Shown here one piece after another: positions 1,282 through 52,206 of a DNA stretch of 64,000 nucleotides. Each line of letters starts with the position of its first letter. Positions within the stretch are counted from its first letter, which is position 1. Below the pieces are notes generated by a model that made no database searches, had not been told where the DNA came from, and worked only from the letters and a program-made list of their open reading frames with translations. The stretch comes from Chitinophaga vietnamensis (lineage in GTDB: Bacteria; Bacteroidota; Bacteroidia; Chitinophagales; Chitinophagaceae), in the NCBI RefSeq assembly GCF_902167635.1, contig NZ_CABHMS010000003.1, positions 558,001 through 622,000 of the forward strand. Reading direction: 5' to 3'. The translations under genes were made by a program, and so were the position numbers.

Positions 1282-2015
1282 AAACAAGGAACCCTGCCTC
1301 ACGTTTCGATATACACGTAAAAAAGCACGACCGCGTACTGGAAGTGGGCGGCGGCCACAATCCGCATCCACGCTCGAATGTAGTGGTCGACAAATACGCC
1401 GATGACAACACGCACCGCAGCGGCGATATCAAAGTGCTGCGCAACCAGCAGTTCCTTTCCGCCGATGGCGAGCACTTGCCATTCGATCATCATGCCTTCG
1501 ACTACGTAATTTGCAATCATGTGCTCGAACATGTCGAAGACCCGCATGCCTTTCTGCAAGAACAGTTCCGGGTGGCCAAACGCGGCTACATCGAAACGCC
1601 CTCTTTGCTGGGCGAGCATCTCTATCCTAAAAAGTCCCACAAATGGGTACTGCTGGAAATCGACAACAAACTGGTACTGGTAGATAAACAACGTATAGGC
1701 TTCCCCGTTAACTTCGATTTCGGAGAGCTGTTCCAGGCTTACTTCCCTAAAAACTCTATCGGCTACAAAATGATGGAGCGCACGCATCCCAACCTGCACA
1801 CCGTACGCATAGAGTGGGAGGGCAGCTTCGACTACCTCATCAACCCCGACGACGCTACCCTCATGCAATATTTCCTCGCTCCCTGGAGCGAAGAAATGGT
1901 ATACCATCACTTCCCCAAACGCTCCATGGGCGCCGAACTCGCCGCCGCTGCCCGCGCCTTCGCGGATATATGCCGCAGTATAGTCAAATCCAGGCTCAGG
2001 ATTACAGGATTATAA
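1278..2015 (+). CDS. Class I SAM-dependent methyltransferase
   Basis: A 245-residue methyltransferase. Motif I is VLEVGGG (about residues 20-26) followed by an acidic residue at the end of strand 2, and the post-motif segment FDYVICNHVLEHVEDP (about 74-89) matches Methyltransf_11-type enzymes. The target is unknown; its place after a glycosyltransferase suggests a sugar or a lipid-linked glycan. The start overlaps the previous stop (ATGA). The last codons and the TAA lie inside a long inverted repeat, so the C-terminal TGL is set by the repeat sequence rather than by a conserved domain. Confidence 0.85.
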   Translation: MKTRNPASRFDIHVKKHDRVLEVGGGHNPHPRSNVVVDKYADDNTHRSGDIKVLRNQQFLSADGEHLPFDHHAFDYVICNHVLEHVEDPHAFLQEQFRVAKRGYIETPSLLGEHLYPKKSHKWVLLEIDNKLVLVDKQRIGFPVNFDFGELFQAYFPKNSIGYKMMERTHPNLHTVRIEWEGSFDYLINPDDATLMQYFLAPWSEEMVYHHFPKRSMGAELAAAARAFADICRSIVKSRLRITGL

Positions 2016-2164
2016 TGCAGGATTACAGGATTTTTTTTCAGGATTAATAAAGATTAAAAAAGATTCGCGAAGATCATTTCGATTTGATCTCCGCGAATCT
2101 TTTTTAATCTTTATTAATCCTGAAAAAAAATCCTGATAATCCTTCCAATCATTATAATCCTGAG
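1995..2164. repeat. Long intergenic inverted repeat A (convergent junction)
   Basis: Imperfect outer arms begin CTCAGGATTA on both strands. A perfect 44-bp inner stem pairs 2026-2069 with 2092-2135, and after one mismatch it extends by five more pairs around a short loop. The arms repeat words such as CAGGATT and GATTAA. It covers the stop codons of both convergent genes (stops at 2015 and 2152) and probably ends transcription in both directions. Its inner arm is nearly the same as that of the repeat at 16779-16948. Confidence 0.93.
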
Positions 2165-3009
2165 TAAGACAAAATTCGCTCATCAATCTTATCCATCAAC
2201 TCCGGGGTCTTCGCCATATCGAACTTGCGGGCGAAGAATTTTCCTGATTGCATGATGGCTGGAAAGTCGCTATTGGTAAATGTTTTGGGATGCGATCCTT
2301 TGGTGCTCCAGTCGATGTATCGGTGGTTGTTAGGCACTACGGTGGCGCGCATGGCGGGATCGTTCATGATGAGGGTCTGGAATACGAATTCGTCGCAGCC
2401 CCAGGTGTAGCGGAAATATTGCATCACGGAAGGGTGTTGCCGGGCGAAGTGGAGGCAGAAGCGGGCGCACTCTTCGGTGATGGACCACCATGCGGATCCT
2501 CCATAGAAGCGCATCCCCAGGGGCAGTTTGCGCCGGGGCATGAGGCGGTTGAAGAGGTTGGTCAGAAAATATTTGCCTTTGAACTGGATGTCTACAAAAT
2601 GGTAGCGTTCCATTTTGCTGCTGGTAGCGCGTACTTCTTCGTCGGGAAAGAGATCGAGGAATTGCTGGCCGCGGTGCTGGCTGTAGAAGGTATAGAGTTC
2701 ATCCATGCTCACGAGCGGGTAACAGGCGCCGCTCAGGAGATTGATGGACATATATCTGCGTTCCGCTTCCAGGGCCACTTTGAGGCCGTCGAGCGTAGCG
2801 CGCACGGTGCCGAAGCCGGCCCAGTTTACACGGGTGCGCTTCGGCAGAAAGTATACTTGCGGCTGTTCCGCAAGCGGGAGAAAAGGAGCGATGTCTGATT
2901 TGGCATCGATGTGAATGTAACAGTCCACTTTGGGATGTGACAGCCTGCTGATCAGCCGTTTCAGCTGTTCAGGGTTGTTGTACGCAAGAATGATAAATGC
3001 GAGGCGCAT
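2152..3009 (-). CDS. GT14 core-2/I-branching-type glycosyltransferase
   Basis: A 285-residue protein of the core-2/I-branching beta-1,6-N-acetylglucosaminyltransferase family (GT14). The N-terminus has the family's AFIILAYNNPEQL start, then YIHIDAKSD (about 31-39), LLSGACYPL (about 91-99), FYGGSAWWSI and GCDEFVFQTL near residue 205. These are the usual landmarks, including the acidic residues thought to act in catalysis. It probably adds a branch sugar to a surface polysaccharide. It follows the flippase gene with a 7-bp gap, so the two are likely co-transcribed. The final SGL-stop is encoded within the inverted repeat at 1995-2164. Confidence 0.88.
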   Translation of the reverse strand: MRLAFIILAYNNPEQLKRLISRLSHPKVDCYIHIDAKSDIAPFLPLAEQPQVYFLPKRTRVNWAGFGTVRATLDGLKVALEAERRYMSINLLSGACYPLVSMDELYTFYSQHRGQQFLDLFPDEEVRATSSKMERYHFVDIQFKGKYFLTNLFNRLMPRRKLPLGMRFYGGSAWWSITEECARFCLHFARQHPSVMQYFRYTWGCDEFVFQTLIMNDPAMRATVVPNNHRYIDWSTKGSHPKTFTNSDFPAIMQSGKFFARKFDMAKTPELMDKIDERILSYSGL

Positions 3010-3016
3010 GTAAAAG

Positions 3017-7700: not shown

Positions 7701-7760
7701 TTCGTGGAAGTGAAGGGGGAGAATAATTTCAAATGGGTAGGGCGGCTGCTGAAGTTGTAA
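4734..7760 (+). CDS. Secreted esterase/beta-helix/PKD protein with T9SS type A sorting domain
   Basis: A 1008-residue multidomain exported protein. Residues 1 to about 36 form a signal peptide ending AAMGQQ. Residues 40-280 are an alpha/beta hydrolase of the PHB-depolymerase/carboxylesterase type, with nucleophile elbow GLSRG (Ser159), acid in HNDGDPTVP (Asp214) and His250 in SGHDAW. About 285-720 is an Asn- and Gly-rich right-handed beta-helix of the pectate-lyase type. Two PKD domains follow (about 725-820 and 828-922), each with a DPDGSI(A/V)SYSW core. The end is a type IX secretion type A signal (RLYPNPT to LLKL). It probably de-esterifies and binds or cleaves a polysaccharide outside the cell. 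Its 3' end overlaps the convergent regulator by 32 bp. Confidence 0.9.
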   Translation: MNNLATFNVRLKWVCVNGMRLLGAIMILLFTQAAMGQQGPLTPRTLNYPNMGGMMESLPQGYNSGNNTYPLLIAMHGIGEEGDGSAQQITRLTNTGIPKLINSGGFPASVNANGKSFSFIVLCPQFNGIPQEIQMWQLINYAKQHYRIDTTRMYLTGLSRGGGATWGFSSLNNKDAGTLAAIVPVAGNYDPGVPVADTIAANNLPVWAFHNDGDPTVPSDYSKRWVQYINAYRPAANPQARLTIFNVSGHDAWTKAYDPAYRENGKNIYEWMLQYTRGTAVSTPATPGRRITLQPNTGATPGFYYPNANTQLGVNPGDTLCIPPGDYTGMMLGNLSGTAAQPVVIINCGGLVRFGINNTSTSYSTTVDLENCRYVEFAGTGAPNLEYGFDILGSNSKGEGMFAMYWTNGSSDFDVHNIYIHNAGMFFVAKTTQDCATPQYWETGGYVMRNCRVHHLKCITSQYEGFYIGNSHYLLDLPCGNNIRSHHIENLEVYDNYLENTGSDGIQIGMAYDGNNKVHHNKVINYGTRHDDLNGYGILMNPGSRMEVYDNYLNGGYASGICFFGSGLSKAYNNVVANLTWDGFTVADRPVFDSVTAYVYNNTFINVTRAGTVYAPGVGEGHKFYNNVCVSPSGAAQDKPFNGYYIVGSAPIKYDYKNNLYYTNIADAKFVNPAAGDFHLQATSPLIDKGLDLSTTLGLKTDFDGVSRPQGKAFDAGAYEYRTGTGNIPPQANAGPDIVITLPVNSVTLDGSASMDPDGSIASYSWSMLNGPSTAVFNNATIAKPMVSGLVKGVYTFRLVVTDNGGLTDTATTTVTVQSSAGGKKPPVAIAGAAETIILPNNTINLDGSASYDPDGSIVSYSWTQIAGPASTILAPDRAHTSALVVAKGVYTYQLVVRDNDSLTGTATKQVKVIDPSDVHPPDDTTVTIRLYPNPTRDHVKLEINNHDIKMAYVTIYNTRGMAVIKGAYAITNTLNIDLNIGSLATGIYFVEVKGENNFKWVGRLLKL

Positions 7761-8163: not shown

Positions 8164-8204
8164 GAGAAGCCCTTGAAGCGCTCAAAGCGTTTCAAGGGCT
8201 TCTC
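8164..8204. repeat. Hairpin K with GCCCTTGAAGCGCT core
   Basis: A 19-bp stem with one G-T mismatch and a 3-base loop, arm GAGAAGCCCTTGAAGCGCT. It spans the stop codon of the leftward glycosyltransferase (8192-8194), whose last residues KRSP are coded by the arm. The same core appears as the inner hairpin at 52100-52130. It probably acts as a 3'-end processing or termination element, though it has no clear U run. Confidence 0.85.
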
Positions 8205-15365: not shown

Positions 15366-16778
15366 ATGATCATGAAAAGAACACTCCATATATTATATAG
15401 CGCATTGCTGGTATTATGTGTTGCAGCTTGCAGCAAGAACCTGGATATCAACGACAATCCCAACCAGGCCACCAAACCGCCGATCAACGGATCGCTGGCG
15501 GCTACCACGTATAATACGGCTTTCAATATTTACCGGGTGAGCAATATCACCTCATACTATATGCAATACCTGGCTTCGCCAAGGGCCGCCAGCGCCGCCG
15601 ACGTGTATGAAGCCACTGACTACAGCGGCACCTGGAAAAACCTGTATCACAACATGACCGACATAAAAGATATGATACAGCAGGGGAGAGACCTCGGCGC
15701 TGCGCAGCACGTTGGTGTTGGCGAAGTGCTGATGGCATTGAACCTGGAGATGGTGAACGACCTTTGGGGCAGCGCGCCCTATACGCAGGCTTTCAACGTG
15801 GAATACCTGCAACCCGCCTACACAGCCGATGACAGCCTGTACACATATTGCCTTCAGTTACTCGATGATGGCATCACGCAGCTGAAGCGCACCGATGCCA
15901 AATATGTGCTCGATCCGGTGAAAGACCTGCTCCACGGCGGTAACAGCGCTGCCTGGATCAAAACGGCCTATACGCTGAAAGCCAGGATTTTAAACCATAT
16001 CTCTAAAAAATCGAAGTATGATGCAGCCGCTATCCTGGCCGCTATCGCCAACGGCTATACGAATAATTCAGACGATGCACAACTCACGCAGTTTCAGTCG
16101 CTCAGTCCCTGGAACCAGGCTGTGGTCAATAATAACAGTAACCTGCTCGACGGCTGGATGAGCGATCATTTCATCAAGGCATTGAACGGCGCCACCTTCG
16201 GCGTAGCAGATCCACGTTTGCCATTGATCACGGACACTACCATCTACGGCGACTACCGCGGCACCGTAAATGGCGCGGGCGGCACCAGCTCCAATACCGA
16301 CGGCAAGCTGTGCTACCTCTCGGACAGAGGTTTCTATTCCAAGCCCGGCGCGCCGCTGATGGTGGCCACCAACGCAGAGTGCCGTTTCATTGAAGCCGAA
16401 GCCGCCTTCCGCAGCAACGACAAGGCCCGCGCCTACAGCGCCTACCTCGCCGGCATCAAAGCGCATATGGACAAACTCGGCGTAGATCCCGCTAAACGTG
16501 ACGCCTATACGAATAATCCGATCGTTGCCGTAGGAGCCGCCAACATCACCCTCGACCTGATCCTCAAAGAAAAGTACGTCGCCCAGTTCCTCATGCCCGA
16601 CGCCTGGAACGACGGCCGCCGCTACGACTACCAATACAAAAACTTCAACCTGCCCGTTGGCGCGCTGCTGGGCAACGCCTTCATCCGCCGCCTGGCCTAT
16701 CCCGATTCCGAGAAAGGCCGCAACAGCAAAAACGTCCCCACCGTGCAGCTGACGGACCACGTGTGGTGGGATCAATAA
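15366..16778 (+). CDS. SusD/RagB-like lipoprotein (SusD_2 type)
   Basis: A 470-residue surface lipoprotein that caps the preceding SusC barrel and binds its substrate. A lipobox (CVAAC, cysteine about residue 22) ends the signal peptide, and the mature start LDINDNPNQAT is the classic SusD opening. The helical TPR-like core includes YHNMTDIKDMIQ, LEMVNDLWGSAPYTQAF and the late CRFIEAEAAFR stretch. A second ATG two codons in (15372) may be the true start. A perfect 81-bp hairpin begins immediately after its TAA. Confidence 0.94.
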   Translation: MIMKRTLHILYSALLVLCVAACSKNLDINDNPNQATKPPINGSLAATTYNTAFNIYRVSNITSYYMQYLASPRAASAADVYEATDYSGTWKNLYHNMTDIKDMIQQGRDLGAAQHVGVGEVLMALNLEMVNDLWGSAPYTQAFNVEYLQPAYTADDSLYTYCLQLLDDGITQLKRTDAKYVLDPVKDLLHGGNSAAWIKTAYTLKARILNHISKKSKYDAAAILAAIANGYTNNSDDAQLTQFQSLSPWNQAVVNNNSNLLDGWMSDHFIKALNGATFGVADPRLPLITDTTIYGDYRGTVNGAGGTSSNTDGKLCYLSDRGFYSKPGAPLMVATNAECRFIEAEAAFRSNDKARAYSAYLAGIKAHMDKLGVDPAKRDAYTNNPIVAVGAANITLDLILKEKYVAQFLMPDAWNDGRRYDYQYKNFNLPVGALLGNAFIRRLAYPDSEKGRNSKNVPTVQLTDHVWWDQ

Positions 16779-16948
16779 GCTCATGATTAAAGGATTAAAA
16801 GGATTAGCAGGATTTTTTTACAGGATTAATAAAGATTAAAAAAGGATTCGCGAAGATCAAATCGAACTGATCTTCGCGAATCCTTTTTTAATCTTTATTA
16901 ATCCTGTAAAAAAATCCTGCTAATCCTTTTAATCCTTTAATCATGAGC
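16779..16948. repeat. Perfect 81-bp inverted repeat B (convergent junction)
   Basis: Arms 16779-16859 and 16868-16948 pair without any mismatch around an 8-base loop. The left arm starts on the base after the SusD stop codon. The arms are built from AGGATTA-like words and share the AATAAAGATTAAAAAAG core of the repeat at 1995-2164. A 15-bp direct duplication (AATCATGAGCTCAAT at 16939-16953 and 16954-16968) joins it to the stop of the opposite gene. Confidence 0.97.
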
Positions 16949-16963
16949 TCAATAATCATGAGC

Positions 16964-18196
16964 TCAATGGAAAAATAAGTAGCCCAGCAATATCGCCGAT
17001 ACGATACCGAAGAAATCCGCTATCAGGCCGGCAGCCAGGGCATAGCGGGTTTTCTTGATGTTCACGGAGCCGAAGTAAACGGCCAGTATATAAAAGGTGG
17101 TTTCAGTGGTGCCTTGTATGATGCTCACCAGGCGCCCAACGAAGGAGTCGGGTTTTTCGCGGGTCATGATCTCTACCATCAGGGCGCGGGAGCCGCCGCC
17201 GCTGAGCGGTTTCATGAAGGCTACCGGTAACGCAGGTACGAAATCAGTGTTGAGGCCGAGCCAGCCGAAGAATATTTTGAGGCCGTTCACCAGGTAGTCC
17301 ATACAGCCGGTGGCGCGGAAGGCGCTGATCGCCACCAGTATGCCCACCAGGTAAGGGATGATGCGGACCGAAATATTGAAGCCCTCTTTAGCGCCTTCGA
17401 TGAACACATCATATACATTGATCTTTTTGATGATGCCCGAACCAAGGAATATCACAACGATGGCGAAGATGATACCGCCACCCAGACTGGCCGTTTTAGG
17501 TCCGATCTGATCCGGGGGCATGCTCTTTACCCAGTAGTAAAGGCCCGTTACCAGTAAGGCGAAGCACCCAAGAAATACGAGCACCGGCAGTTTAAAGAGA
17601 TTGATACGTTGGTAGATGGCCACGGTGAACATACCTGCGATGAAGGCGATAAAAGTAGAAATGAGAATAGGGATGAACACATCCGCAGGGTTGGCCGCGC
17701 CGGCAGACATGCGCAGGGCGATCACCGAGGTAGGAATGAGGACCACGCCGGCCGTGTTGAGTACGAGGAACATGATCTGTGAATTGCTGGCCTCTTCCGG
17801 ATGCGGATTCAGCTCCTGCAACTCCTTCATGGCTTTGAGGCCCATCGGGGTGGCGGCATTGTCCATGCCCAGAGCGCTGGCAGAAAAATTCATCAGCATA
17901 GAACCCATAGCCGGATGGCCCTTGGGTATCTGTGGAAACAGCTTGGAAAAGAAAGGATTCACCAGCCTGGAAAACCTGGCGATCATGCCGCCAGCTTCAC
18001 CTACCCGCATGATGCCCAGCCAGAAGGTCATGACACCAATGAGCCCGATAGATATCTCTGCGCCGGTTTTGGCGCTGGACATCATCCCGTTCATCACCTG
18101 CCCGAAAACAACCGTATCGCCGAGGAAAAATGTCTTGAAAGCCGCTACTATAAAGGAAATAAGAAAGAATGCCAGCCAGACGTAGTTAAGAGCCAT
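16964..18196 (-). CDS. Nucleoside-recognition (Gate) domain membrane protein, SpmA-SpmB fusion type
   Basis: A 410-residue integral membrane protein joining two 'nucleoside recognition/Gate' halves. In spore formers these are separate proteins, SpmA and SpmB. The first half carries GLIGVMTFWLGIMRVGEAGG and a conserved MLMNFSASALGMDNAATPMG-like segment; the second has GFNISVRIIPYLVGILVAI and PLSGGGSRALMVEIM. About ten helices are expected. The fused form is common in non-sporulating Bacteroidota and its transported substrate is unknown. Its stop codon sits in the second copy of a 15-bp duplication next to the 81-bp hairpin. Confidence 0.85.
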   Translation of the reverse strand: MALNYVWLAFFLISFIVAAFKTFFLGDTVVFGQVMNGMMSSAKTGAEISIGLIGVMTFWLGIMRVGEAGGMIARFSRLVNPFFSKLFPQIPKGHPAMGSMLMNFSASALGMDNAATPMGLKAMKELQELNPHPEEASNSQIMFLVLNTAGVVLIPTSVIALRMSAGAANPADVFIPILISTFIAFIAGMFTVAIYQRINLFKLPVLVFLGCFALLVTGLYYWVKSMPPDQIGPKTASLGGGIIFAIVVIFLGSGIIKKINVYDVFIEGAKEGFNISVRIIPYLVGILVAISAFRATGCMDYLVNGLKIFFGWLGLNTDFVPALPVAFMKPLSGGGSRALMVEIMTREKPDSFVGRLVSIIQGTTETTFYILAVYFGSVNIKKTRYALAAGLIADFFGIVSAILLGYLFFH

Positions 18197-19383: not shown

Positions 19384-19406
19384 CCGTTAACGAAGGTTAC
19401 AACAAA

Positions 19407-19516
19407 AATTTAGGGATTTGAGGATTTACGAATGTAAGGATTGTATCGACGTTATATTTTAAACAACATAACATCCATACAATCCTTACATTCGTAAATT
19501 CTCAAATCCCTAAATT
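19407..19516. repeat. Inverted repeat E (convergent junction)
   Basis: Forty-base arms (19407-19446 with 19477-19516) pair with one mismatch; arm AATTTAGGGATTTGAG, then TTTACGAATG. The loop contains a small GTTAT/ATAAC pair. Between 19517 and 19565 partial copies of the right arm continue (CTTACATTCGTAAATTCT and ATCCCTAAATT), up to the stop of the TonB receptor. It probably terminates both genes. Confidence 0.9.
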
Positions 19517-19565
19517 CTTACATCCCTAAATTCTTACATTCGTAAATTCTCCCATCCCTAAATTT

Positions 19566-23611: not shown

Positions 23612-23642
23612 CAAAGCTAATAGTTTCCCGCAAAGACGCAAA
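23612..23642 (-). promoter_or_regulatory. metX promoter
   Basis: Read on the minus strand: TTTG (23642-23639), a 19-base spacer, TAGCTTTG (23619-23612). This is an exact fit to the Bacteroidota consensus. The TTTG lies in the left arm of the inverted repeat at 23623-23728. Confidence 0.8.
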
Positions 23643-23728
23643 GCAGCAAAGCAATAATGCAGCGGAAACAGAAACGGATTTGCCTTCGCTGCATTATTGC
23701 TTTGCTGCTTTGCGTCTTTGCGGGAAAC
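23623..23728. repeat. Perfect 42-bp inverted repeat H between divergent genes
   Basis: Arms 23623-23664 and 23687-23728 pair perfectly around a 22-base loop; arm begins GTTTCCCGCAAAGACGCAAA. Each outer half carries the -33 TTTG of a promoter facing outward (metX on the left, the osmC-like gene on the right). Confidence 0.96.
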
Positions 23729-25384: not shown

Positions 25385-25398
25385 AAATATTTATGGAT

Positions 25399-25471
25399 GG
25401 ATTTGTGGATTTACGGATTTGAAGAGATGATTCAAATCCGTAAATCCGTAAATTCGTAAATCCACAAATCC
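25399..25471. repeat. Inverted repeat F
   Basis: Arms built of GGATTT and TTTACG words (GGATTTGTGGATTTACGG then TTTGAA) pair around a GAGATGA loop; the right arm has an extra TTTACGAA-like insertion. It lies between two rightward genes, so it would be a transcript hairpin rather than a convergent-junction element. Confidence 0.8.
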
Positions 25472-28439: not shown

Positions 28440-28450
28440 ACAACAATGAT

Positions 28451-28493
28451 CGAATTTGAGAAAAGAGGGGCCCTGCTACCATTCTCAAATTCG
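28451..28493. terminator. Bidirectional hairpin between convergent genes
   Basis: A perfect 12-bp stem (CGAATTTGAGAA with TTCTCAAATTCG) around a 19-base loop, placed between the DUF5686 stop and the stop of the small leftward ORF. There is no U run, so termination is inferred from position. Confidence 0.6.
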
Positions 28494-28503
28494 ACGTCTC
28501 TGA

Positions 28504-28626
28504 TTACATGCGCACGGATCTTCTTCTTGTTGTTTTGATCTCTTTCTTGTCGAAAAAATAAGCCAGTAATCTATAGATCCAGATACCAACTACTGCGTAA
28601 ATAAAATAAGTAATGTAAACACTCAT
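28504..28626 (-). CDS. 40-residue single-pass membrane protein (small ORF)
   Basis: ATG 28626 to TAA 28504 codes for 40 residues: a hydrophobic aromatic helix (YITYFIYAVVGIWIYRLL, residues 4-21), then AYFFDKKEIKTT and a strongly basic tail RRRSVRM. The positive tail predicts it stays on the cytoplasmic side. A -7 element (TAACTTTG, 28727-28720) lies about 95 bp upstream on the same strand, and a hairpin follows the stop. I do not know the family; it could be a membrane-peptide regulator or a stress small protein. It is below the size usually called automatically. Confidence 0.55.
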   Translation of the reverse strand: MSVYITYFIYAVVGIWIYRLLAYFFDKKEIKTTRRRSVRM

Positions 28627-28719
28627 AACATAACATTTAAGGGTTAAACAATAAAATTTGATTTGCTTCTCAAACCATTTTTCAAAATTGATGCCAATCG
28701 GGGTACGCTAACTTGGGTT

Positions 28720-28727
28720 CAAAGTTA
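28720..28727 (-). promoter_or_regulatory. -7 element upstream of the 40-residue ORF
   Basis: TAACTTTG on the minus strand, an exact TAnnTTTG match. The best upstream TTTG is only 14 bases away, so the -33 is weak. Confidence 0.5.
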
Positions 28728-28895
28728 TATACAATAAATATCAAATAGTTATAAAACTATAGATGACTTTTTCACACTTTATGAACATTTGATCCTGATG
28801 AAGGCCCCAAAAAAGCTTCGCCAATTGAGTATGATTTCATCACACATAGATGTTAATCTTTATAGATAAAAAAACTGAATTTTTTTATCGGAAAT

Positions 28896-28925
28896 TTTGG
28901 AATGCTAAAAATATTAGTATATTTG
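28896..28925 (+). promoter_or_regulatory. Promoter of a candidate small RNA
   Basis: TTTG (28896-28899), an 18-base spacer, TATATTTG (28918-28925), one base short of the usual 19-21 spacing. The 10-mer ATATTAGTAT just before and overlapping the -7 box is found again at 29012-29021. Confidence 0.65.
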
Positions 28926-28931
28926 CCCAAG

Positions 28932-28995
28932 ACATATAAGTTGTAGAAAAAGCCCTGGATATCTTACTGCATTGAGGTTCCGGGGCTTTTCTGCT
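28932..28995 (+). ncRNA. Candidate short non-coding RNA ending in a terminator hairpin
   Basis: The stretch from the predicted transcript start to the end of a hairpin (28945-28991, AAAAGCCC pairing with GGGCTTTT, extended by GGA/TCC) would be about 65 nucleotides. It has no start codon with a meaningful frame. The T run after the stem is short. I match it to no known RNA family. An attenuator for something downstream is the main alternative. Confidence 0.45.
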
Positions 28996-29039
28996 TGACG
29001 GGTTACTAATTATATTAGTATGATTGGTGAAAACGCAGG

Positions 29040-29210
29040 CTAGTACTGTACCTTGCCGGCTTTGGAGTAAAACCACACTTTATCTGTTGCGCGGTCGTAA
29101 TACACAACCACTTCGTTGCCGCCTTGAATGGTGCATATTACCTGGCCTCGATGGTATTTTGTTTGGGTAACGCCGCAGGACTCGGTGTGCCCTATGAAGA
29201 ACTATTAGCC
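29040..29210 (-). pseudogene. Possible decayed coding remnant
   Basis: The minus frame ending at TAG 29040-29042 stays open for about 55 codons and reads like a real protein tail (GQVICTIQGGNEVVVYYD, then KVWFYSKAGKVQY). It has no in-frame ATG before a TAG at its upstream end. The plus frame over the same bases is also open and ends AAGLGVPYEELLAGL. Only one can be coding. I cannot tell which, nor name either family. Confidence 0.3.
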
Positions 29211-29214
29211 GGAC

Positions 29215-29245
29215 TCTGAAAATATGCGATGATGTTGTATCTTTG
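29215..29245 (+). promoter_or_regulatory. trhO promoter
   Basis: TCTG, a 19-base spacer, then TATCTTTG (29238-29245), a full -7 match. It predicts an 80-90 base leader before ATG 29335. Confidence 0.7.
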
Positions 29246-29283
29246 CGGCCTGCAAAGAATCTGGGCCCTTTGAAAGGGAATAG

Positions 29284-29327
29284 ATTTGAAATTTTGTTCA
29301 CCAGGCAAGTGTCCTTAAAATTTCAAA
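29284..29327 (+). promoter_or_regulatory. Stem-loop in the trhO 5' leader
   Basis: TTTGAAATTTT (29284-29294) pairs perfectly with AAAATTTCAAA just upstream of the start codon, leaving a loop of about 22 bases. A smaller CCCTTT/AAAGGG hairpin precedes it. The arrangement could control access to the start codon. Confidence 0.6.
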
Positions 29328-29334
29328 ACAAAAA

Positions 29335-30360
29335 ATGGTATTACACAACAGAGTATCCGCCGCTGAACTGAGAGAACGGCTGGCCAAAGAAACATTTAAA
29401 CGCGTTACCGTCTCCTTTTATCAGTACGCGAAAATCGCAGACCCACAGGCCTTTCGCGATTCACTTTACTCCTCGCTTTTTGCACTCGATGTATTCGGAC
29501 GCATATACGTAGCGCACGAAGGTATCAACGCACAGATCAGTGTGCCGGAACATCATTTTGAGGCGTTCCGCGAAACATTATACGCCATCAGCTTCCTTAA
29601 TGGCATCCGCCTCAACATCGCGGTAGATGATGACGGCAAGTCTTTCTTCGTACTGAAGATCAAAGTGAGGGAAAAGATTGTTGCAGACGGTATCGATGAT
29701 CCCTCCTTTGATATGGACAACCGCGGCCAATACCTCGATGCCGCCGCCTTCAACAAACTCACCGATGATCCCGACACTATCATCGTGGATATGCGCAACC
29801 ACTACGAATACGAAGTGGGCCATTTCGAAGGCGCCATAGAAGTGCCTTCCGACACCTTCCGCGAACAACTGCCCATGGCCGTTGACATGCTGAACGAACA
29901 GAAAGATAAGAACATCATCATGTACTGCACCGGTGGCATCCGCTGTGAAAAAGCCTCCGCCTACATGCTGCACAAAGGCTTCAAAAATGTATTCCACCTA
30001 GAAGGAGGCATCATCGAATACACCAACAAAGCCCGTCAACAAGGACTGCCCATCAAATTCAAAGGCAAAAATTTCGTATTCGACGAACGCCTCGGCGAAC
30101 GCATCAGCGACGATATCATCAGTTACTGCCACCAATGCGGCGCCCCTTGCGATACCCATACCAATTGCCTCAACGATGGCTGTCACCTGCTCTTCATTCA
30201 ATGCGAGAGCTGCGCTAAAAAATACGATGGCTGCTGCTCCGAAGCCTGCCAAACCACTCATGCACTCCCTCCCGAAGCACAAGCCGAAATGCGCAAAGGC
30301 ATTGACAAAGGTTTGATGTTTAATAAATCCCGGCGCCGCCGGGGGCTCAGGATTATATGA
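29335..30360 (+). CDS. trhO: tRNA uridine-34 hydroxylase TrhO (rhodanese family)
   Basis: A 341-residue YceA/TrhO protein, which hydroxylates U34 of certain tRNAs using oxygen. The N-terminal acylphosphatase-like domain has VSFYQYAKI and [11 protein letters not shown]. The rhodanese domain (about 130-235) has the active-site loop [12 protein letters not shown] with Cys198. A cysteine-rich zinc-type tail follows ([14 protein letters not shown], then [12 protein letters not shown], about 266-310). The frame ends RRRRGLRII, where the last residues are encoded by an inverted repeat arm. Confidence 0.93.
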
Positions 30361-30523
30361 TTAGAAAGGATTAACAGGATTTCTTTTTTTATTATAAAGG
30401 ATTAAAGGATTAACGAAGATTATGGAGGATGATAATACAATCTCCAATATAATCTTCGTTAATCCTTTAATCCTTTATAATAAAAGAAATCCTGTTAATC
30501 CTTTCTAATCATATAATCCTGAG
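30346..30523. repeat. Long inverted repeat C (convergent junction)
   Basis: Arms of about 75 bases, starting CTCAGGATTATATGATTAG on both strands, pair perfectly except for a 3-base T-run difference. The arms repeat GGATTAA words. A small TGGAG/CTCCA stem closes the tip. The left arm contains the trhO stop codon. Confidence 0.95.
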
Positions 30524-30566
30524 CAAAAAAATCCGCCCCGCGTTGTTTCTTCTCGGCAGGGCGGAG
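30524..30566 (-). terminator. Terminator of the porin operon
   Basis: TCCGCCC pairs with GGGCGGA across a 20-base loop, followed on the minus strand by seven T residues. It ends the leftward set that starts at the ABC-F gene. Confidence 0.85.
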
Positions 30567-30656
30567 CGAATGGAACATGATTGCGTTGCTTGCTTTCATG
30601 ATCATTCTATCAACCTATATGCGAACTAAAAATTTGATGCATGTTCAGGGAGGTTA

Positions 30657-31961
30657 TTAAAACAGTACCCGGGTTCTCAGGCCGAGGATGTTTACCGGCC
30701 CGCGATCCTTGTTGTATGCGGGATGCAGCACGAATTGGTAATCCGGGCTTAAAGCAATATGGAGCCGGGTAATATTTAATTGATAGAAGATTTCAGCGAT
30801 CATTTCCGGTGAATAGTTGAGACGACCATCACCCACCATGAAGCCTGCACCGCCGGCAGCGAGGTAGCGTTGGTGATCTTTGGAGATACCATTTGCCACG
30901 AATGCAATGCCTGCATTGTCCTGCGCACGGCGCCAGGAGCGGCCGTTCTGTAGCCAGCCTGCACTGATCGTTTGATCAATTTCCGTATAGGCCCAGGTTT
31001 CATTACGGCCATCATTCCAGGAGGCCTTGAGGAAGGCGCCGCCATCTTTGGTGAACTTCTGATCCATGTTGATGCCAAAGCCATATTTGGTGCGGCCATT
31101 GTGGCGCGTGGCTGTAACGTCAACAGAATCCAGCTTGATAGCCTGCAGGTAGTTGCCCATCGGCGCCTGGTTCAGGAAGGCCATCACGCGGATATTCCCT
31201 TCATATTCATGTATTTTATGTGTATGCGTCAGCTCTATTAGCTGGCCATTAGATTTGCCATAATCATAGTTGAGCGCAGGACCGTTGGCTGTCTTGGGTT
31301 CCAGCGAAGTGGCAGCTTGCAGCATCCAGTTATTCTTGCGGTACTGTATGGTGAAAGCTACAGTATAACCACGTACATCGGCAGGGTAGTCCCAGGCTGC
31401 ATTAGTTACGAGTGCCCAGTTGAGGAACTGGGTGCGCGGGTCATGGCTGTAGGCATTCAGGTCGAAAAAGTCGGACAGGCAATACTTACCTGCGATGAAG
31501 CGGAGATAATGCAATGGCCTTTCTCCGGCTACGTTATTCAGGTCGTCATCGCTCTTTTCTGTTTCATGGCCTAACGGCAACGTGTATACGCCATAAGCCC
31601 TGGCGAGGTATATCGTTGGTTCGGAACTGCCCACACGGAAGGTTTCACCATTCGGGAAGCCTGCGATACCGGTGGCGCGGCTTAAACCCTTGCCCCCGGA
31701 CAATTCGGGGTTGATATATAGTTCGAGGTTTTTTAATGGGCGGACGCCTGCATAAAAAGTGCTGGTAATGGAAGTGGCGCCAGGCTCATGGGGAACGAAA
31801 CTGTTGACACCACTGTATTTTGCCTGAAAGTCAGGATGCCATTGCGTTACCAGCGTTTGCTGGAAATGAAAGGTATATAGTCTCAGCGTATCTGTCTTTG
31901 CCTGTGCCAACAGGTGAGCAGTGCTCACGACCAGGAGGCCTGTTAGAAAGAATTGCTTCAT
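30657..31961 (-). CDS. Carbohydrate porin-like outer-membrane protein (OprB type)
   Basis: A 434-residue exported beta-barrel. The signal peptide ends AHLLAQ (about residue 20). The mature start TLRLYTFHFQQTLVTQWHPDFQAKYSGVNS, taken in two halves, is typical of OprB-like porins of Bacteroidota, as are LELYINPELSGGKGLS, NWALVTNAAWDYPADVRGYT and the terminal strand ending in Phe. It would allow diffusion of small solutes across the outer membrane. It follows the shortened efflux adaptor by 9 bp and is probably the last gene of that operon, which hints at movement of metal or another toxic solute. Confidence 0.85.
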   Translation of the reverse strand: MKQFFLTGLLVVSTAHLLAQAKTDTLRLYTFHFQQTLVTQWHPDFQAKYSGVNSFVPHEPGATSITSTFYAGVRPLKNLELYINPELSGGKGLSRATGIAGFPNGETFRVGSSEPTIYLARAYGVYTLPLGHETEKSDDDLNNVAGERPLHYLRFIAGKYCLSDFFDLNAYSHDPRTQFLNWALVTNAAWDYPADVRGYTVAFTIQYRKNNWMLQAATSLEPKTANGPALNYDYGKSNGQLIELTHTHKIHEYEGNIRVMAFLNQAPMGNYLQAIKLDSVDVTATRHNGRTKYGFGINMDQKFTKDGGAFLKASWNDGRNETWAYTEIDQTISAGWLQNGRSWRRAQDNAGIAFVANGISKDHQRYLAAGGAGFMVGDGRLNYSPEMIAEIFYQLNITRLHIALSPDYQFVLHPAYNKDRGPVNILGLRTRVLF

Positions 31962-41343: not shown

Positions 41344-41347
41344 GGCG

Positions 41348-44307: not shown

Positions 44308-44332
44308 GCGGGCAGGTAATATTCTTGACAAG

Positions 44333-44375
44333 AAAAGCAGCATAGCAGGGGTTATACCTGCTGTGCTGCTTTTTT
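44333..44375. terminator. Bidirectional terminator after infC
   Basis: AAAAGCAGCATAGCAGG pairs with CCTGCTGTGCTGCTTTT (one T-G type mismatch) around a 7-base loop, with an A run on one side and six T on the other. It serves infC and the convergent HEAT-like gene. Confidence 0.93.
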
Positions 44376-45684: not shown

Positions 45685-46665
45685 TTGCTGAAAAGAGAAC
45701 TGCGCGTCATTCTTTGGTCGCTGGCGGTGAGCTTTATACTTACCGGGGCCAAGTTTGCAGCTTACTTTATGACCCATTCTGTAGCTATCCTGTCGGATGC
45801 GCTGGAATCCATTATCAACGTGGTCGCTGGCGGTTTTGCGAGTTACAGTATTTATCTTGCGGGCATGCCCAAAGATGAGAACCACCCTTACGGGCATGGC
45901 AAGGTCGAATTTTTCTCGATAGGCTTTGAAGGCGCCATGATCTTTTTTGCGGGCATCCTCATCCTGGTGAAGGCGGCGCAGTATTTTATCTTCCCGCGGG
46001 AGCTGCACCAGGTGGATAGCGGTATCTGGGTACTGGGCATTACCACTGCGGCCAACCTCTTACTGGGCCTCTATCTCCGGCGTTCAGGAAAAGAATTGTC
46101 TTCCCTCACCATTACCGGCAACGGGCAACATATCATGACAGACGTATACAGCAGTGCCGGGCTGATCGTAGCCCTGTTGGTGATTCACTTCACTGGCTGG
46201 AACTGGCTGGACCCCCTTGTATCTGTGGTGATGGGCGTGCTCATTCTCATCAATGGTTATAAGCTGATGCGCCGCTCTATCTCAGGTCTGATGGACGAAA
46301 CGGATATGCAGGTGATAGACAAAGTGATCCGCATACTGGGCGCGCACCGGCGCCCCAACTGGATCGATGTACATAACATGCGCATGCAGCAATACGGCAA
46401 CAATTATCATATCGATTGTCACATTACATTGCCTTATTACCTGGAGTTAAACGAAGCGCATGAGGAGATGAAGCGCGTGGAAACTCTCGTGAATAAAGAG
46501 TTTGACAATGCCGATGTAGAATTTTTCATTCACATGGATCCTTGCATCCCATCTTGTTGCCACTATTGTTTAAAATCGGAATGCCCGGTGCGCAGTCATC
46601 CTTTTACCGGCGAAATTGCATGGTCGAGAGAGAATGTGCTGCCTAACCGTAAACACGGCGCATAA
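45685..46665 (+). CDS. Cation diffusion facilitator transporter with Cys-rich tail
   Basis: A 326-residue CDF protein with about six helices. The helix 2 metal site is HSVAILSDALES and the helix 5 site is HIMTDVYSSAG. The C-terminal domain is followed by a cysteine cluster, DPCIPSCCHYCLKSECPVR, that probably binds zinc or another metal. It exports divalent cations using the proton gradient. No ATG precedes the first helix, so TTG 45685, downstream of a -7 box, is the likely start. The gene converges on the serine hydrolase across a perfect hairpin. Confidence 0.88.
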   Translation: MLKRELRVILWSLAVSFILTGAKFAAYFMTHSVAILSDALESIINVVAGGFASYSIYLAGMPKDENHPYGHGKVEFFSIGFEGAMIFFAGILILVKAAQYFIFPRELHQVDSGIWVLGITTAANLLLGLYLRRSGKELSSLTITGNGQHIMTDVYSSAGLIVALLVIHFTGWNWLDPLVSVVMGVLILINGYKLMRRSISGLMDETDMQVIDKVIRILGAHRRPNWIDVHNMRMQQYGNNYHIDCHITLPYYLELNEAHEEMKRVETLVNKEFDNADVEFFIHMDPCIPSCCHYCLKSECPVRSHPFTGEIAWSRENVLPNRKHGA

Positions 46666-46677
46666 TAATTAGGGATT

Positions 46678-46743
46678 ACGAATTAAGAATTACGGCCCGC
46701 CATGTGCACACATGGCGGGCCGTAATTCTTAATTCGTAATCTG
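46678..46743. repeat. Perfect 32-bp inverted repeat G (convergent junction)
   Basis: Arms 46678-46709 and 46712-46743 pair fully around a 2-base centre; the inner half is GC-rich (CGGCCCGCCATGTG) and the outer half is ATTACGAATTAAGAATTA. Additional weaker pairing continues outward. It is probably a bidirectional terminator. Confidence 0.95.
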
Positions 46744-46750
46744 TAATTAT

Positions 46751-47968
46751 TTATTCTTCTCCTGCTTCTTCACCGTCGCCGTGGCCGATGATCTCGCGGA
46801 TAGGTTTTACGGCCTGATAGATACCGCGGTTGTATTTATTGCCGAGGATGATAAGGGTGGTGCTGTCTTGCACAAAGCGATAGAACACGGTATTGTTGCC
46901 GTGCCACCAGCCGTTGTGATAGACAATATTTTTTGAGCTGTCGGGGTATACCATGAGACGCCAGCCGAGGCCATAGTTGCGGACGCCGGGCTTCTCGTGG
47001 CTATACGGCGTATAGGCGGCTTTGAGCGTTTCAGGTTTCAGCAGTTTGCCGGAATAGAGCGCCTGGTCCCATTTGAGCATATCGCGGGCGGAGCTGTAGA
47101 TGCCTTTGTCGCCCATCACGCCATCAAAGTAGGTATCAGGTTCGAGTTGCCCGTTGTATTTGTGGCTTTGCGTCTGATGCGCGCGTGCGGCGGTATTGGG
47201 CGCATATACAAAGGTGTTGTGCATGCCCAATGGTTCAAAAAATGTTTGCTGCATGAAGTCAGCATATTTTTGTCCGCTTACTTTTTCAATGATAGAGGCG
47301 AGCAGGAGATAGTTGGTATTGCAATACTGGAAATGCGTATCGGGCAGGTGTTGGATCGGTGGTTTGTGCGCTTCCATGAGCCGGATCACTTCATCATTGG
47401 TGATGAATGCTGCCTGATCTTTCCAGAGGCTGTCGCAGAAATAAAGGTAGTTAGGCAGGCCACTGCGGTGGGTCAGGAGCATTTGTACGGTGATGCCTTT
47501 GTAGGGGAACTCGGGAAAAAATTTTTGTAAGGAATCCTGCAAAGACAGCTTCTCATGATCCGCGAGCCATAGCACAGCGGCGCCGGTAAAGGTTTTGGAC
47601 ACAGACGCCATTTGGAAGGAAGAGCTGTCGATGATGGCTGTTTTGCTCCGGAAATTTTCGAGGCCATGATATTGTTCAAAGATGATCACACCTTTGCGGG
47701 CCACGATCATGGAGCCATTGAAGCCGGTTCTTAAGAGCTTGTTATGATAGAATGCATTCAGGTCCTGCTGCATCTGCAATGTACGCGGTGCGTGGAGGAT
47801 TGCTTCTTTCTCTTCGGCCGATAATCCTAATGTATAGACAGAACTGTCTGTAACGGCCATTCTCTTTTCTGCTGCTGCCCTGCGAGCGGCGTTGCTTTGG
47901 CAACTTGTCGATATTGTTACAATCCCTGCAATCGTGATGAGGATACTTACTGCTTTCAATCGCTTCAT
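46751..47968 (-). CDS. Class C beta-lactamase-like serine hydrolase, lipoprotein
   Basis: A 405-residue exported protein with lipobox TSC (Cys23). It has the SxxK motif SVSK (Ser122, Lys125), a YxN motif in YCNTN and a late HNGWWHGN replacing KTG, as is usual in this broad family of esterases and D-amino acid peptidases. PLGMHNTFVYAP is a family landmark. It sits in the outer or inner membrane and its substrate is unknown. No regulator or partner lies nearby. Confidence 0.88.
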   Translation of the reverse strand: MKRLKAVSILITIAGIVTISTSCQSNAARRAAAEKRMAVTDSSVYTLGLSAEEKEAILHAPRTLQMQQDLNAFYHNKLLRTGFNGSMIVARKGVIIFEQYHGLENFRSKTAIIDSSSFQMASVSKTFTGAAVLWLADHEKLSLQDSLQKFFPEFPYKGITVQMLLTHRSGLPNYLYFCDSLWKDQAAFITNDEVIRLMEAHKPPIQHLPDTHFQYCNTNYLLLASIIEKVSGQKYADFMQQTFFEPLGMHNTFVYAPNTAARAHQTQSHKYNGQLEPDTYFDGVMGDKGIYSSARDMLKWDQALYSGKLLKPETLKAAYTPYSHEKPGVRNYGLGWRLMVYPDSSKNIVYHNGWWHGNNTVFYRFVQDSTTLIILGNKYNRGIYQAVKPIREIIGHGDGEEAGEE

Positions 47969-49516: not shown

Positions 49517-49524
49517 GATAGTCT

Positions 49525-49561: not shown

Positions 49562-49654
49562 CATTATTTCAACCCCACTTAACGCCTGTTCGTCGATCTG
49601 TTTTTGTATGAGCATCTTTTTTCAGTAACTTGTCTGAAAATTTTTTTTGCAAAG

Positions 49655-50452
49655 ATGAAAAGTGCACTATTATCAGGAGCGATGGCCGTGTTATGTGTTG
49701 CAGGGGCATATGCTCAGGATAGCGACAGTAACAAATGGGCGCCCGCAGAGATCAAGATCGACGGCAAGGCAACAGAATGGCCCAAGCCTTTACAGTTCTA
49801 TAATAACGATACCAAATTATTTTATACGATAGCCAACGATGCGGAACAATTATACGTAATCGTTAGTGTGCCTGATCAACAGAGCCAGATGAAGATCATG
49901 CGCTCGGGCCTTACCTTTTCCATCAACCCGGGCGGTAAGAAGAAAGCAACATCTTCCATCACTTTTCCGTTATGTGGAGACGCAGCAGCACCGGACGCAC
50001 AGGAGTCCCAGCTGCAACGCAGCGCCGGCGAGTGGAAGAAGGCCATCCTGGCCAATGTGAAAGAGATCAATGTAGAAGGTATCGCAGGCGTACAGGATGG
50101 TAATATCCCGGTGCAGAACAGTTACGGTATCCGTACCGCGGCTTCTGTTGACGATGCCAATAACCTGGTGTGCGAGCTGGCCATTCCGCTCAAGCTGGTA
50201 GGACTTTCCGCCAGCAGCGACCAACCAGTGGCGTACCGGTTCAGGGTGAATGCCCTTACCCGGGAAGACCGCAAGGCGAAAGAGAAAGAAGCCAAAGACA
50301 GAGCGGCTGCCGCCAAAGATAAAGACAAAGGCAATGGCGGCGGCATGCACGGCGGCGGTATTTATGGACAGCAGATGGGTGGGCAGCCAATGGAAAATCT
50401 GTTCTTCTCCAAAGATTTCTGGACCAAACAAACGATGGCGAAACATCAGTAG
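49655..50452 (+). CDS. Exported CBM9/DOMON-like protein
   Basis: A protein of about 265 residues with a signal peptide (MKSALLSGAMAVLCVAGAYA). The core is a beta-sandwich like carbohydrate-binding module 9 or DOMON (IKIDGKATEWPKPLQFY, then LYVIVSVPD). After about residue 205 it becomes Lys/Ala/Glu-rich, then Gly/Met/His-rich (GGGMHGGGIYGQQMGG), which might bind metal. The frame is open upstream to 49604, but ATG 49655 starts the signal peptide. The S41 peptidase starts 36 bp after it. Confidence 0.75.
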   Translation: MKSALLSGAMAVLCVAGAYAQDSDSNKWAPAEIKIDGKATEWPKPLQFYNNDTKLFYTIANDAEQLYVIVSVPDQQSQMKIMRSGLTFSINPGGKKKATSSITFPLCGDAAAPDAQESQLQRSAGEWKKAILANVKEINVEGIAGVQDGNIPVQNSYGIRTAASVDDANNLVCELAIPLKLVGLSASSDQPVAYRFRVNALTREDRKAKEKEAKDRAAAAKDKDKGNGGGMHGGGIYGQQMGGQPMENLFFSKDFWTKQTMAKHQ

Positions 50453-50488
50453 TGATCATCGATTTTTCATATAGTCTTAACCGTTACT

Positions 50489-52039
50489 ATGCACAAAACA
50501 TTATTTGCTACAGGACGTAAAACCTTGCTCGCAGCGGCTGTGTGCGTGGGTTTGCTGGCAGCCTGTAAAAAGGACCACAACGATAACCCGGGCGGCAACC
50601 CCAATCCCGGCAATGGCAGCACCGCCCTGACCCCGGAAGACTCCCTCAAATACCTGATGTACCAGATCATGCAGGTGACCTACGGCGATGGCGGCAGAAA
50701 CGCTGCCACCGGATTGCCTACCTATTACTGGTATAACATGGTGCCTTCACTGAACCCGCTGGATGCCAGTAAATATCCCAACGCCGATACCCTGCTGGCG
50801 GTAATGAAACGATATACTACCAACGATCGCTATAGCTTCCTCGACAGGAACGGTACGCTCACCAATAAAGTTATGAACGGCATATCCGCGCAGAATTTTA
50901 TGGCCACCTCCGGTGTAACGGGCGATTTTGGCTTCGAATACGCACCGGCACTGGATCAGACAGGGAAGCTGCATCTCTTTATTTTATATGCAGATAAAAA
51001 CGGCCCTGCGGGCCAGATAGGAGTGACGAGAGGATGGGAGATCACTTCGGTGAATGGCAATAGCAATTTCTCTAACACCAATGCATTCTTGCAGGAAGTG
51101 TACAATGCCATCTTCCAATCATCTACCGTTACACTCGGCTTCAAACGCAATGATGGCAGCAGCATGACCTCCACATTGAATGCCGGCTCCTATAACATCA
51201 ACCCGGTAGCTTTTGATACCGTGTATAATGTTGGCGGTAAAAAGACAGGCTACTTTGTGCTGTACACTTATTCCAGTGTGCTCAGCTCCAAAGGACAGCC
51301 TACCTTTACCAAAACCGCGCTGGACCAGCTTTTCTCCAAGTTCACCGCTAATGGTATCACGAATCTGATCGTGGATCTCCGCTACAATGGCGGCGGCGCC
51401 GTAACCACCGCAGAATATCTCGACAGCGCCATCGCGCCCGCATCCGCAGCGGGCAAAGTGATGTATAACTACAAATACAACGACAAGCTAACGCAGAACC
51501 TTGCCGCTACCGGACTGGATGCACAGGTGAAGTTCCCTTCGCCGGCAGGTGGCCTGGGTTTGCAGCATGTATTTTTCATCACCAGCAGGAACACCGCATC
51601 CGCCAGCGAGCTTACACTTAATAACCTCAAACCTTATATGTCGGTATTGCTTGTGGGTGATACTACCTACGGCAAGCCGGTTGGGTTCATCGATTTCAAC
51701 ATCTCGATGTACGACAGCACCCACGCCAAAAAATACCTGGCCGATCTTTACGCGATCAACTTTGAAACGCAGAACGCTAATAACCAGGGTGGCTACTATA
51801 AAGGCATTGCGCCGGATGCCCGCGCAGTGGACTATGTAAATGTGCCTTGGGGTAACACCACTTCTGATGTGAACCTGCGACAGGTATTCACTTACCTGAA
51901 CACCGGCATCTTCTCCAATGTCAGCACCCGCATGGCGGCTACTGAACTGACCGGCGCCGGACAGCTGGAGGCCTTGCCTGGCACTACACCGAAGAATAAC
52001 TTCAACGGCATGGTAGGAAGAAGGGTACAGATGAGATAA
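50489..52039 (+). CDS. S41-family peptidase, lipoprotein
   Basis: A 516-residue exported protein with lipobox LLAAC (Cys about 25), then a low-complexity Asn/Pro/Gly linker. A degenerate PDZ-like domain (GQIGVTRGWEITSVNG) precedes the tail-specific protease core: NLIVDLRYNGGGAVTTAEYL and the catalytic serine in SRNTASASELTLNNL. C-terminal processing peptidases of this group occur throughout Bacteroidota. It is probably in an operon with the CBM9-like protein. The TAA lies at the edge of a 49-bp inverted repeat. Confidence 0.88.
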   Translation: MHKTLFATGRKTLLAAAVCVGLLAACKKDHNDNPGGNPNPGNGSTALTPEDSLKYLMYQIMQVTYGDGGRNAATGLPTYYWYNMVPSLNPLDASKYPNADTLLAVMKRYTTNDRYSFLDRNGTLTNKVMNGISAQNFMATSGVTGDFGFEYAPALDQTGKLHLFILYADKNGPAGQIGVTRGWEITSVNGNSNFSNTNAFLQEVYNAIFQSSTVTLGFKRNDGSSMTSTLNAGSYNINPVAFDTVYNVGGKKTGYFVLYTYSSVLSSKGQPTFTKTALDQLFSKFTANGITNLIVDLRYNGGGAVTTAEYLDSAIAPASAAGKVMYNYKYNDKLTQNLAATGLDAQVKFPSPAGGLGLQHVFFITSRNTASASELTLNNLKPYMSVLLVGDTTYGKPVGFIDFNISMYDSTHAKKYLADLYAINFETQNANNQGGYYKGIAPDARAVDYVNVPWGNTTSDVNLRQVFTYLNTGIFSNVSTRMAATELTGAGQLEALPGTTPKNNFNGMVGRRVQMR

Positions 52040-52206
52040 CCAGGATTAAACGGATGAATAAGATTTTCCTGATTTAACGCGAAGATCAACGCGGTTGTAG
52101 CCCTTGAAGCGCTTTGAGCGCTTCAAGGGCTTCTTCGTTTAAATCGTCCTCGCTTAAATCTTCGCGTTAAATCAGGAAAATCTTATTCATCCGTTTAATC
52201 CTGGTT
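52038..52206. repeat. Nested inverted repeat D (convergent junction)
   Basis: Outer arms 52038-52086 and 52158-52206 pair perfectly over 49 bases (AACCAGGATTAAACGGATG start). Inside, 52100-52130 forms its own 14-bp hairpin (GCCCTTGAAGCGCT, 3-base loop), the core seen at 8164-8204. The left arm begins in the stop codon of the S41 gene. Confidence 0.96.

Follow-up and report, generated by a model that had tools for sequence, protein, structure and literature searches.

Long word-built palindromes at gene ends in Chitinophaga vietnamensis

Palindromes at gene junctions in the window

The stretch of DNA analysed here (the window) comprises 64,000 nucleotides of Chitinophaga vietnamensis, positions 558001-622000 of contig C3 in genome G000 (6.31 Mb, 15 contigs), and carries a series of very long inverted repeats, or palindromes, between the ends of neighbouring genes. 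A preliminary description of the window had listed six of them between tail-to-tail genes. All six are present, with arms of 43-90 nt that are 91-98% complementary, and genes called with a dicodon model place each at a convergent junction. The same description gave eight of ten convergent junctions as carrying a hairpin, which is too many: the gene calls yield nine in the window, six with a long palindrome, and the remaining three hold an ordinary two-way terminator, a gene overlap and a bare gap (one each). Its proposal that the arms begin on or inside stop codons is borne out in the window and proves general in the genome sample described below.

The palindromes were sorted into families by crude word patterns in their arms, and the family labels are our own. 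Family F1 is built of GGATTA/GATTAA words. Its member at 1995..2164 separates genes that end at 2015(+) and 2152(-), has inner arms at 2026-2076/2085-2135 (51 nt, 98%) and contains a core of A-tract, GC hairpin and T-tract that is terminator-like on both strands. The F1 palindrome at 16770..16957 (arms 16770-16859/16868-16957, 90 nt, 97%; stops at 16778(+) and 16964(-)) is perfect over the inner 82 nt, has an 8-nt loop, fills the gap between both stops and likewise has a two-way terminator core. The predicted RNA fold of 16760-16965 has an energy of -134.7 kcal/mol, compared with a shuffle mean of -36.6 (z = -24.7). At 30345..30524, within the convergent pair 30360(+)/30657(-), a second arm pair is nested within the first (30345-30392/30477-30524, 48 nt, 98%). 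A canonical terminator was looked for in this palindrome and none was found; the same holds for the F2 palindrome at 19404..19565 (convergent 19383(+)/19566(-); arms 19404-19458/19465-19519, 55 nt, 91%), which consists of GGATTTACG words with additional words in the right arm. The F3 palindrome at 46664..46751 (AATTACG/AATTAAG words; arms 46664-46706/46709-46751, 43 nt, 95%) contacts the stop codons of both convergent genes, 46665(+) and 46751(-). Finally, the palindrome at 52038..52206 (convergent 52039(+)/52214(-); arms 52038-52093/52151-52206, 56 nt, 95%) is made of GGATTAAACGG words and encloses a hairpin of a further type, F7 (AGCCCTTGAAGCGCT..AGCGCTTCAAGGGCT, 52099-52131); the crude label sorts it to F2, although its words are F1-like.

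Two palindromes of the window are absent from the preliminary description. One, of F5 (GCAAAG words), has 42-nt perfect arms and lies at the divergent junction 23594(-)/23759(+) (23623..23728); the other is a short F2 palindrome with ∼ 22-nt arms at 25398..25471, between the codirectional genes 25384(+)/25482(+), and scores below the cut-off used in our statistics. Two further hairpins had been counted at convergent junctions. The one at 44333 does lie at such a junction (44307/44374), but the element (44330..44373) is an ordinary A-tract/hairpin/T-tract two-way terminator and not a long palindrome. The one at 28451 is a short imperfect hairpin (28446..28494) 3' of the gene ending at 28439(+); its junction is convergent only if a short minus-strand open reading frame, for example 28504-28626 (40 aa), is a true gene; if not, a plus-strand gene (29335-30360) is the next one called. 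The two places described as having no hairpin indeed have none: 7729-7760 is a gene overlap and the junction 40020/40071 is empty. An Rfam search of 28000-31000 gave four miRNA models that fit the bare long hairpin, all below their gathering scores, and these were dropped as shape matches. The right end of the window (54924-64000) is taken up by part of a minus-strand open frame called at 4430 aa, which crosses the window boundary and reaches 68216 in window coordinates.

Position, families and arm symmetry in a genome sample

Counts were extended to a sample of 1.02 Mb of the 6.3-Mb genome, which includes the window and excludes 12 stretches that had been matched to F1 cores. The sample contains 87 inverted-repeat clusters at a score of at least 20, one at a stretch end and none within genes (clusters sharing up to 45 nt with the end of a gene still counted as intergenic), and one local dinucleotide shuffle of the same 1.02 Mb yielded 0. 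The hairpins are real and far above chance. Junction statistics were restricted to long palindromes, defined by a score of 25 or more. All 72 are intergenic (0/72 within genes), and they mark 24/121 convergent, 39/499 codirectional and 9/123 divergent junctions, or 12.5, 4.8 and 2.4 palindromes per 10 kb of intergenic DNA respectively. The preference for convergent junctions that had been proposed from the window is therefore seen in the sample (24/121 versus 48/622 other junctions, Fisher p = 0.00015), but it is carried by F1. With F1 excluded, 13/121 convergent and 46/622 other junctions bear a palindrome and the preference per junction is not significant (p = 0.20), so that the convergent rule is mostly an F1 rule. 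The window itself is denser than the rest of the sample (6/9 convergent junctions versus 18/112, by subtraction), and 48 of the 72 long palindromes are located away from convergent junctions. Among 34 Chitinophaga loci of ∼ 21 kb, all around one gene, palindromes of score 25 or more occupy 11/100 convergent, 12/239 codirectional and 0/77 divergent junctions.

A better rule than 'convergent junction' is 'abuts a stop codon'. At codirectional junctions 36/39 palindromes are closer to the upstream stop than to the next start, with median distances of 3 nt to the stop and 70 nt to the start. At convergent junctions 20/24 end within 30 nt of both stops (counted by hand from the list), and they can fill almost the whole gap (202/204, 231/240 and 246/251 nt); the four exceptions have one offset each, of 49, 90, 132 or 458 nt. 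In some cases the palindrome itself provides the stop codon, which in one F4 copy lies 18 nt within each arm.

Arm words recur mostly every 7-9 nt. They are GATTTACGGATTT in F2, AATTACGAATTAAG in F3, TTATTTGATTATTT in F4 and GCAAAGACGCAAAG in F5; the REP-like family F6 (for repetitive extragenic palindrome, REP) has GCCCCTACGGGGC. At score 25 the convergent, codirectional and divergent junctions hold, in this order, 11, 2 and 0 palindromes of F1, 8, 19 and 3 of F2, 1, 7 and 2 of F3, 4, 4 and 0 of F4, 0, 5 and 1 of F5, 0, 0 and 3 of F6, and 0, 2 and 0 others. A BLAST search for F1 returned 29 groups, 27 of them palindromic; of the remaining two, one is truncated where its contig ends. Removal of two mirror copies (locus L078, mirroring L077), one weak single arm and the copy cut by the contig end left 25 distinct palindromes, 19 convergent, 6 codirectional and 0 divergent (binomial p = 7e-11 against the share of junctions). 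F1 copies at unrelated sites are alike over up to ∼ 97 nt per arm, and the cores within their outer arms vary: some are two-way terminator cores or F7 hairpins, others REP-like blocks or F2 palindromes. For the 33-nt F7 hairpin (AGCCCTTGAAGCGCTNNNAGCGCTTCAAGGGCT) 104 sites were found genome-wide at up to two mismatches, some of them solitary and others at the centre of larger palindromes, although sites in a mirrored part of contig C7 (see below) may count twice. Of 12 exact copies in the sequence examined, we read the flanks of eight as GGATTA-type shells and four as lying outside such shells. A hairpin related to F7 is also present at 8164-8204 of the window.

The symmetry of the arms was assessed without circularity by seeking word arrays on single strands and asking only afterwards for a mirror partner. 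Mirror pairs account for 29/41 array groups of F2, 7/7 of F3, 5/7 of F4 and 3/3 of F5, the others being single arrays, and no mirror pair of reversed polarity was found among the F2-F5 groups. The two arms of one palindrome resemble each other more than arms paired at random. In F1 own-arm identity is 0.936 versus 0.854 for random pairing and in F2 0.902 versus 0.811, with 0/10000 pairings as good in either family; in F3 (n = 7) 18/10000 and in F4 (n = 5) 88/10000 pairings were as good. For 20/25 F1 copies the best-matching partner of an arm is the other arm of the same copy.

Related species, SbcCD and assembly

No sister strain of G000 was found among 79 genomes of the genus or 80 loci. The closest relatives identified through a protein of the window are Chitinophaga species (best DNA identity in that gene 77.7%), and because the nearest relatives, 70-78% alike in DNA, are too distant for alignment of gaps, other pairs within the genus were used. 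In the pair G046/G024 (flanks 94% alike) one junction retains the inner AAAAAGGAAGCAGA terminator in both genomes, with arms of AATTAATAATTAAG words in one and of AAAAAGCAAAAAGTAAAAA words in the other. In the pair G043/G038 (flanks 88% alike) G043 has 48-nt arms around a terminator that is bare in G038, and at another junction of this pair GCAAAG arms stand on both sides in G038, with a short left remnant in G043. A third junction holds a 148-bp palindrome in G024 and a short gap in G046, and one codirectional palindrome of G043/G038 is conserved with single changes. Downstream of orthologues of gene 15366-16778, at a junction whose neighbour gene varies among species, other species have either no stem or one of 17 to 70 nt whose words are very unlike those here. 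Six Chitinophaga loci share, at positions similar to one another, a stem of 26-27 bp (GGGAGGGGC..) closed by a loop of 20-22 nt, in which pairing is kept and the sequence is variable (L099:3282-3355, L102:3247-3320, L105:3423-3496, L107:3437-3510, L108:3179-3252 and L159:3419-3492); this stem may be a conserved RNA element.

In passages from two studies of Escherichia coli, SbcCD cuts hairpins at long palindromes (PMC3855049; PMC3315005). The NCBIfam SbcD model scores above its cut-off in 24/79 genus genomes, one of these hits (G009) being partial with a stop, and gives no hit in G000. The curated cut-off of the SbcC model is reached in 0/79 genus genomes and 1/14 controls. Strong SbcC hits (E below 1e-40) are nevertheless present in the 23 SbcD genomes other than G009, and the remaining genomes, including G000, have no strong SbcC hit but just short weak ones. 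The distribution of SbcCD across Chitinophaga is patchy.

Samples of 20 kb were taken at a fixed coordinate from genomes with sufficiently long contigs, which included all 24 SbcD-positive genomes (G009 among them) and 36 of the 54 others besides G000. Palindromes of score 30 or more occur in the samples of 0/24 genomes with SbcCD and 9/36 without (Fisher p = 0.008), a comparison whose hypothesis was formed after some junctions had been inspected. When all loci are pooled, including those chosen around one gene, genomes with SbcCD have 3 palindromes of this score in 0.72 Mb, other genomes lacking it 29 in 1.27 Mb, and G000 itself 73 in 1.19 Mb. Among palindromes with a spacer of up to 20 nt, the top-scoring ones of these three sets measure 88, 121 and 206 bp respectively; a less perfect palindrome in G046, which has SbcCD, reaches 119 bp. 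We take SbcCD loss to be permissive, not causal.

Of practical weight is the start of contig C7 (G000:C7:1-124816; L077, L078, L258-L260), an apparent 124.8-kb perfect inverted duplication. By coordinates it has arms of 62,407 bp and a 2-nt spacer, with a GC-rich terminator hairpin near C7:62408 at its centre, and it is 100% identical where compared (arms, 19.2 kb; centre, 4.8 kb; outer ends, 1.5 kb). It is probably an assembly fold-back at the hairpin, possibly a real palindrome-centred duplication. Elsewhere on C7 (G000:C7:381180-381290; L084 10180-10278) the contig ends directly after one F1 arm, which suggests that the palindromes probably also break assembly.

Explanations and comparison with known systems

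We hold it about as likely as not that hairpin-templated copying keeps the arms of these species-specific, dispersed gene-end palindromes symmetric, that they are tolerated in the absence of SbcCD and that they are probably two-way 3'-end elements. Each of them takes up the DNA between a stop codon and the nearest point of constraint beyond it, either the stop of the other gene (tail-to-tail) or the upstream region of the next gene (codirectional). The arms would be kept alike, and probably also extended, by template switching on a nascent hairpin, by which a change in one arm is copied to the other. The lack of SbcCD would allow near-perfect palindromes of ∼ 200 bp to persist. Their restriction to gene ends would have two reasons: at other places genes or promoters would be disrupted, and a symmetric hairpin can be a 3'-end element for both genes. 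Part of F1 would then be plain two-way intrinsic terminators and the rest hairpins without a U-tract, perhaps RNase III sites or exonuclease stops. The DNA itself shows the position at stop codons, the single fixed orientation of the words, a closer match of arms within a copy than between copies and, in sister species, the absence or joint replacement of both arms around conserved cores, and no SbcCD was found in G000; termination and the copying of arms are what we infer.

Several observations weigh against this account. F2-F6 palindromes have no U-tract. In F2 just 12/29 copies have their own arm as the single best match, and 12/41 F2 arrays are single. A preference for the own arm would be equally expected from a one-time inverted duplication with little time to diverge, and the likeness of F1 at unrelated sites would need copying between sites, which correction of arms in place cannot supply. 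As to SbcCD, its status tracks clades, so that 0/24 versus 9/36 is not phylogenetically independent, and the contrast is weak at thresholds other than 30: Mann-Whitney tests on counts give p values of 0.17, 0.08, 0.009, 0.10 and 0.25 at scores 20, 25, 30, 40 and 50. The near-sisters G046 (with SbcCD) and G024 (without) show no visible difference, 27 of the 36 samples without SbcCD have no palindrome of score 30 or more, and three genomes with SbcCD have one 3' of a gene that was compared across the genus.

Two-way intrinsic terminators occur between convergent genes, and the palindromes could be ordinary examples whose stems are overlong, favoured by selection because both genes of a convergent pair use them. 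Cores of A-tract, GC stem and T-tract on both strands of 2026-2135 and 16770-16957 agree with this, as do canonical terminators on one or both strands of 11/25 F1 copies and the bare terminator of G038 where the palindrome of G043 encloses one. We nevertheless consider this explanation unlikely. When a canonical terminator was defined by a stem, a loop of 3-9 and at least 6 T in 8, none was found on either strand in 19/24 convergent gaps with a long palindrome, versus 22/52 palindrome-free gaps of 30 nt or longer (p = 0.003, or 0.001 when 5 T in 8 suffice). Such cores are present in 0/57 F2-F6 palindromes and in one of the two palindromes classed as 'other', and a terminator does not need arms of 50-100 bp. 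The long palindromes would either act by another route (RNase III cleavage, an exonuclease stop or Rho) or not end transcripts. Neutral growth in unconstrained DNA is a different possibility, in which the palindromes would be a mutational by-product with no role and their position would mirror coding and promoter constraint. The filling of gaps between constrained boundaries and the rapid turnover in sister species suit this view, but growth free of selection predicts neither the strict polarity of the words nor the strong convergent bias of F1, and we find it rather unlikely. Convergent gaps with a palindrome also more often have no other terminator, though harmless displacement would give the same picture.

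The preliminary description had also mentioned mobile palindromes, and dispersal within the genome is indeed supported; clear target-site duplications, a consistent REP tag and a linked transposase were looked for without success. A miniature element of the MITE (miniature inverted-repeat transposable element) or REP type, moved by a transposase and lost wherever insertion was not at a gene end, would explain the ∼ 97-nt likeness of F1 arms at unrelated sites, the 104 F7 sites and, as in MITEs, dispersed copies with terminal inverted repeats (the 27 palindromic F1 groups). The placement of the 72 palindromes (63 at codirectional or convergent gaps, 9 divergent, 0 genic) is that of REPs and of bacterial interspersed mosaic elements (BIMEs), and in other bacteria REPs favour these same gaps, some of them within longer palindromes, according to passages of PMC3733652. 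Against such an origin, direct repeats in the 72 flank pairs occur at the level of random pairing, apart from those of 6 nt (2/72 versus 0.2 expected), and MITE target duplications were dropped as there is no general excess. GTAG lies near an end in 7/72 and CGTC in 2/72 palindromes (raw counts), neither consistently. G000 has one Y1_Tnp gene, with no inverted repeat of score 14 or more in its 3.3-kb locus (other transposase families were not searched); the lone Y1 transposase without adjoining repeats and the lack of a consistent tag led us to set aside an origin from REPs and REP-associated tyrosine transposases (RAYTs). F1 outer arms enclose more than one type of core, and F7 cores occur bare or within varying arms, a pattern that insertion of whole elements does not yield; the ends, moreover, abut stop codons and are not scattered through the gap. 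Movement by a transposase therefore seems improbable to us.

Hairpin-templated copying at gene ends can be put more widely, in a form that we hold to be rather unlikely: in genomes that have lost SbcCD a gene-end hairpin would template copying from flank to flank and grow outward to the stop or promoter, its arms would change together, and U-tract terminators would be displaced by two-way 3'-end signals made of species-specific words. Such genomes would be natural laboratories for the origin and persistence of long palindromes without the hairpin nuclease SbcCD, and for transcript ending at genes whose 3' hairpin has no U-tract. Close species pairs are ready comparisons of one junction with and without a palindrome.

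We found no description of word-built, species-specific gene-end palindromes of such length in the open-licence literature, and a search on the arm words themselves gave open-licence papers unrelated by title. Some F1 copies, like some junctions in sister species, have symmetric cores of A-tract, GC stem and T-tract that resemble those of two-way intrinsic terminators, whereas most long palindromes here have no T-tract core. Inverted repeats directly after stop codons are general in bacteria, according to the consulted parts of PMC6060812; there, Lillo (2002) is cited for only some of them fitting intrinsic terminators, and the paper's own result is that most post-stop repeats of E. coli do fit. 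Like these repeats, the palindromes are concentrated immediately 3' of stop codons, but the repeat units in that source start at ∼ 8-9 bp, compared with species-specific stems of 25-105 nt and periodic words here. The substrates of SbcCD in E. coli, as far as described in the passages cited above, are likewise near-perfect, with arms near 100 bp and short spacers (PMC3855049; PMC3315005); long palindromes threaten genome stability there, unlike in G000, which houses dozens and in which no SbcCD was found. With REPs and BIMEs, in the portion of Di Nocera et al. (2013; PMC3733652) drawn on here, the palindromes share dispersal, an extragenic position near gene 3' ends and the same gap preference, and in one cyanobacterium REP pairs are enclosed in longer palindromes. 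REPs are 20-40 bp long in that account, carry GTAG/CGTC tags and often have RAYT genes; here arms reach 105 nt and whole palindromes 208 bp (spacer up to 20 nt), the arms are word arrays, and neither a consistent tag nor a linked Y1 transposase was found. The palindromes are set apart from REPs and from textbook terminators by their length, build, polarity and mirrored turnover, but their general kind is known: they belong with the extragenic palindromic repeats that lie at the ends of genes.

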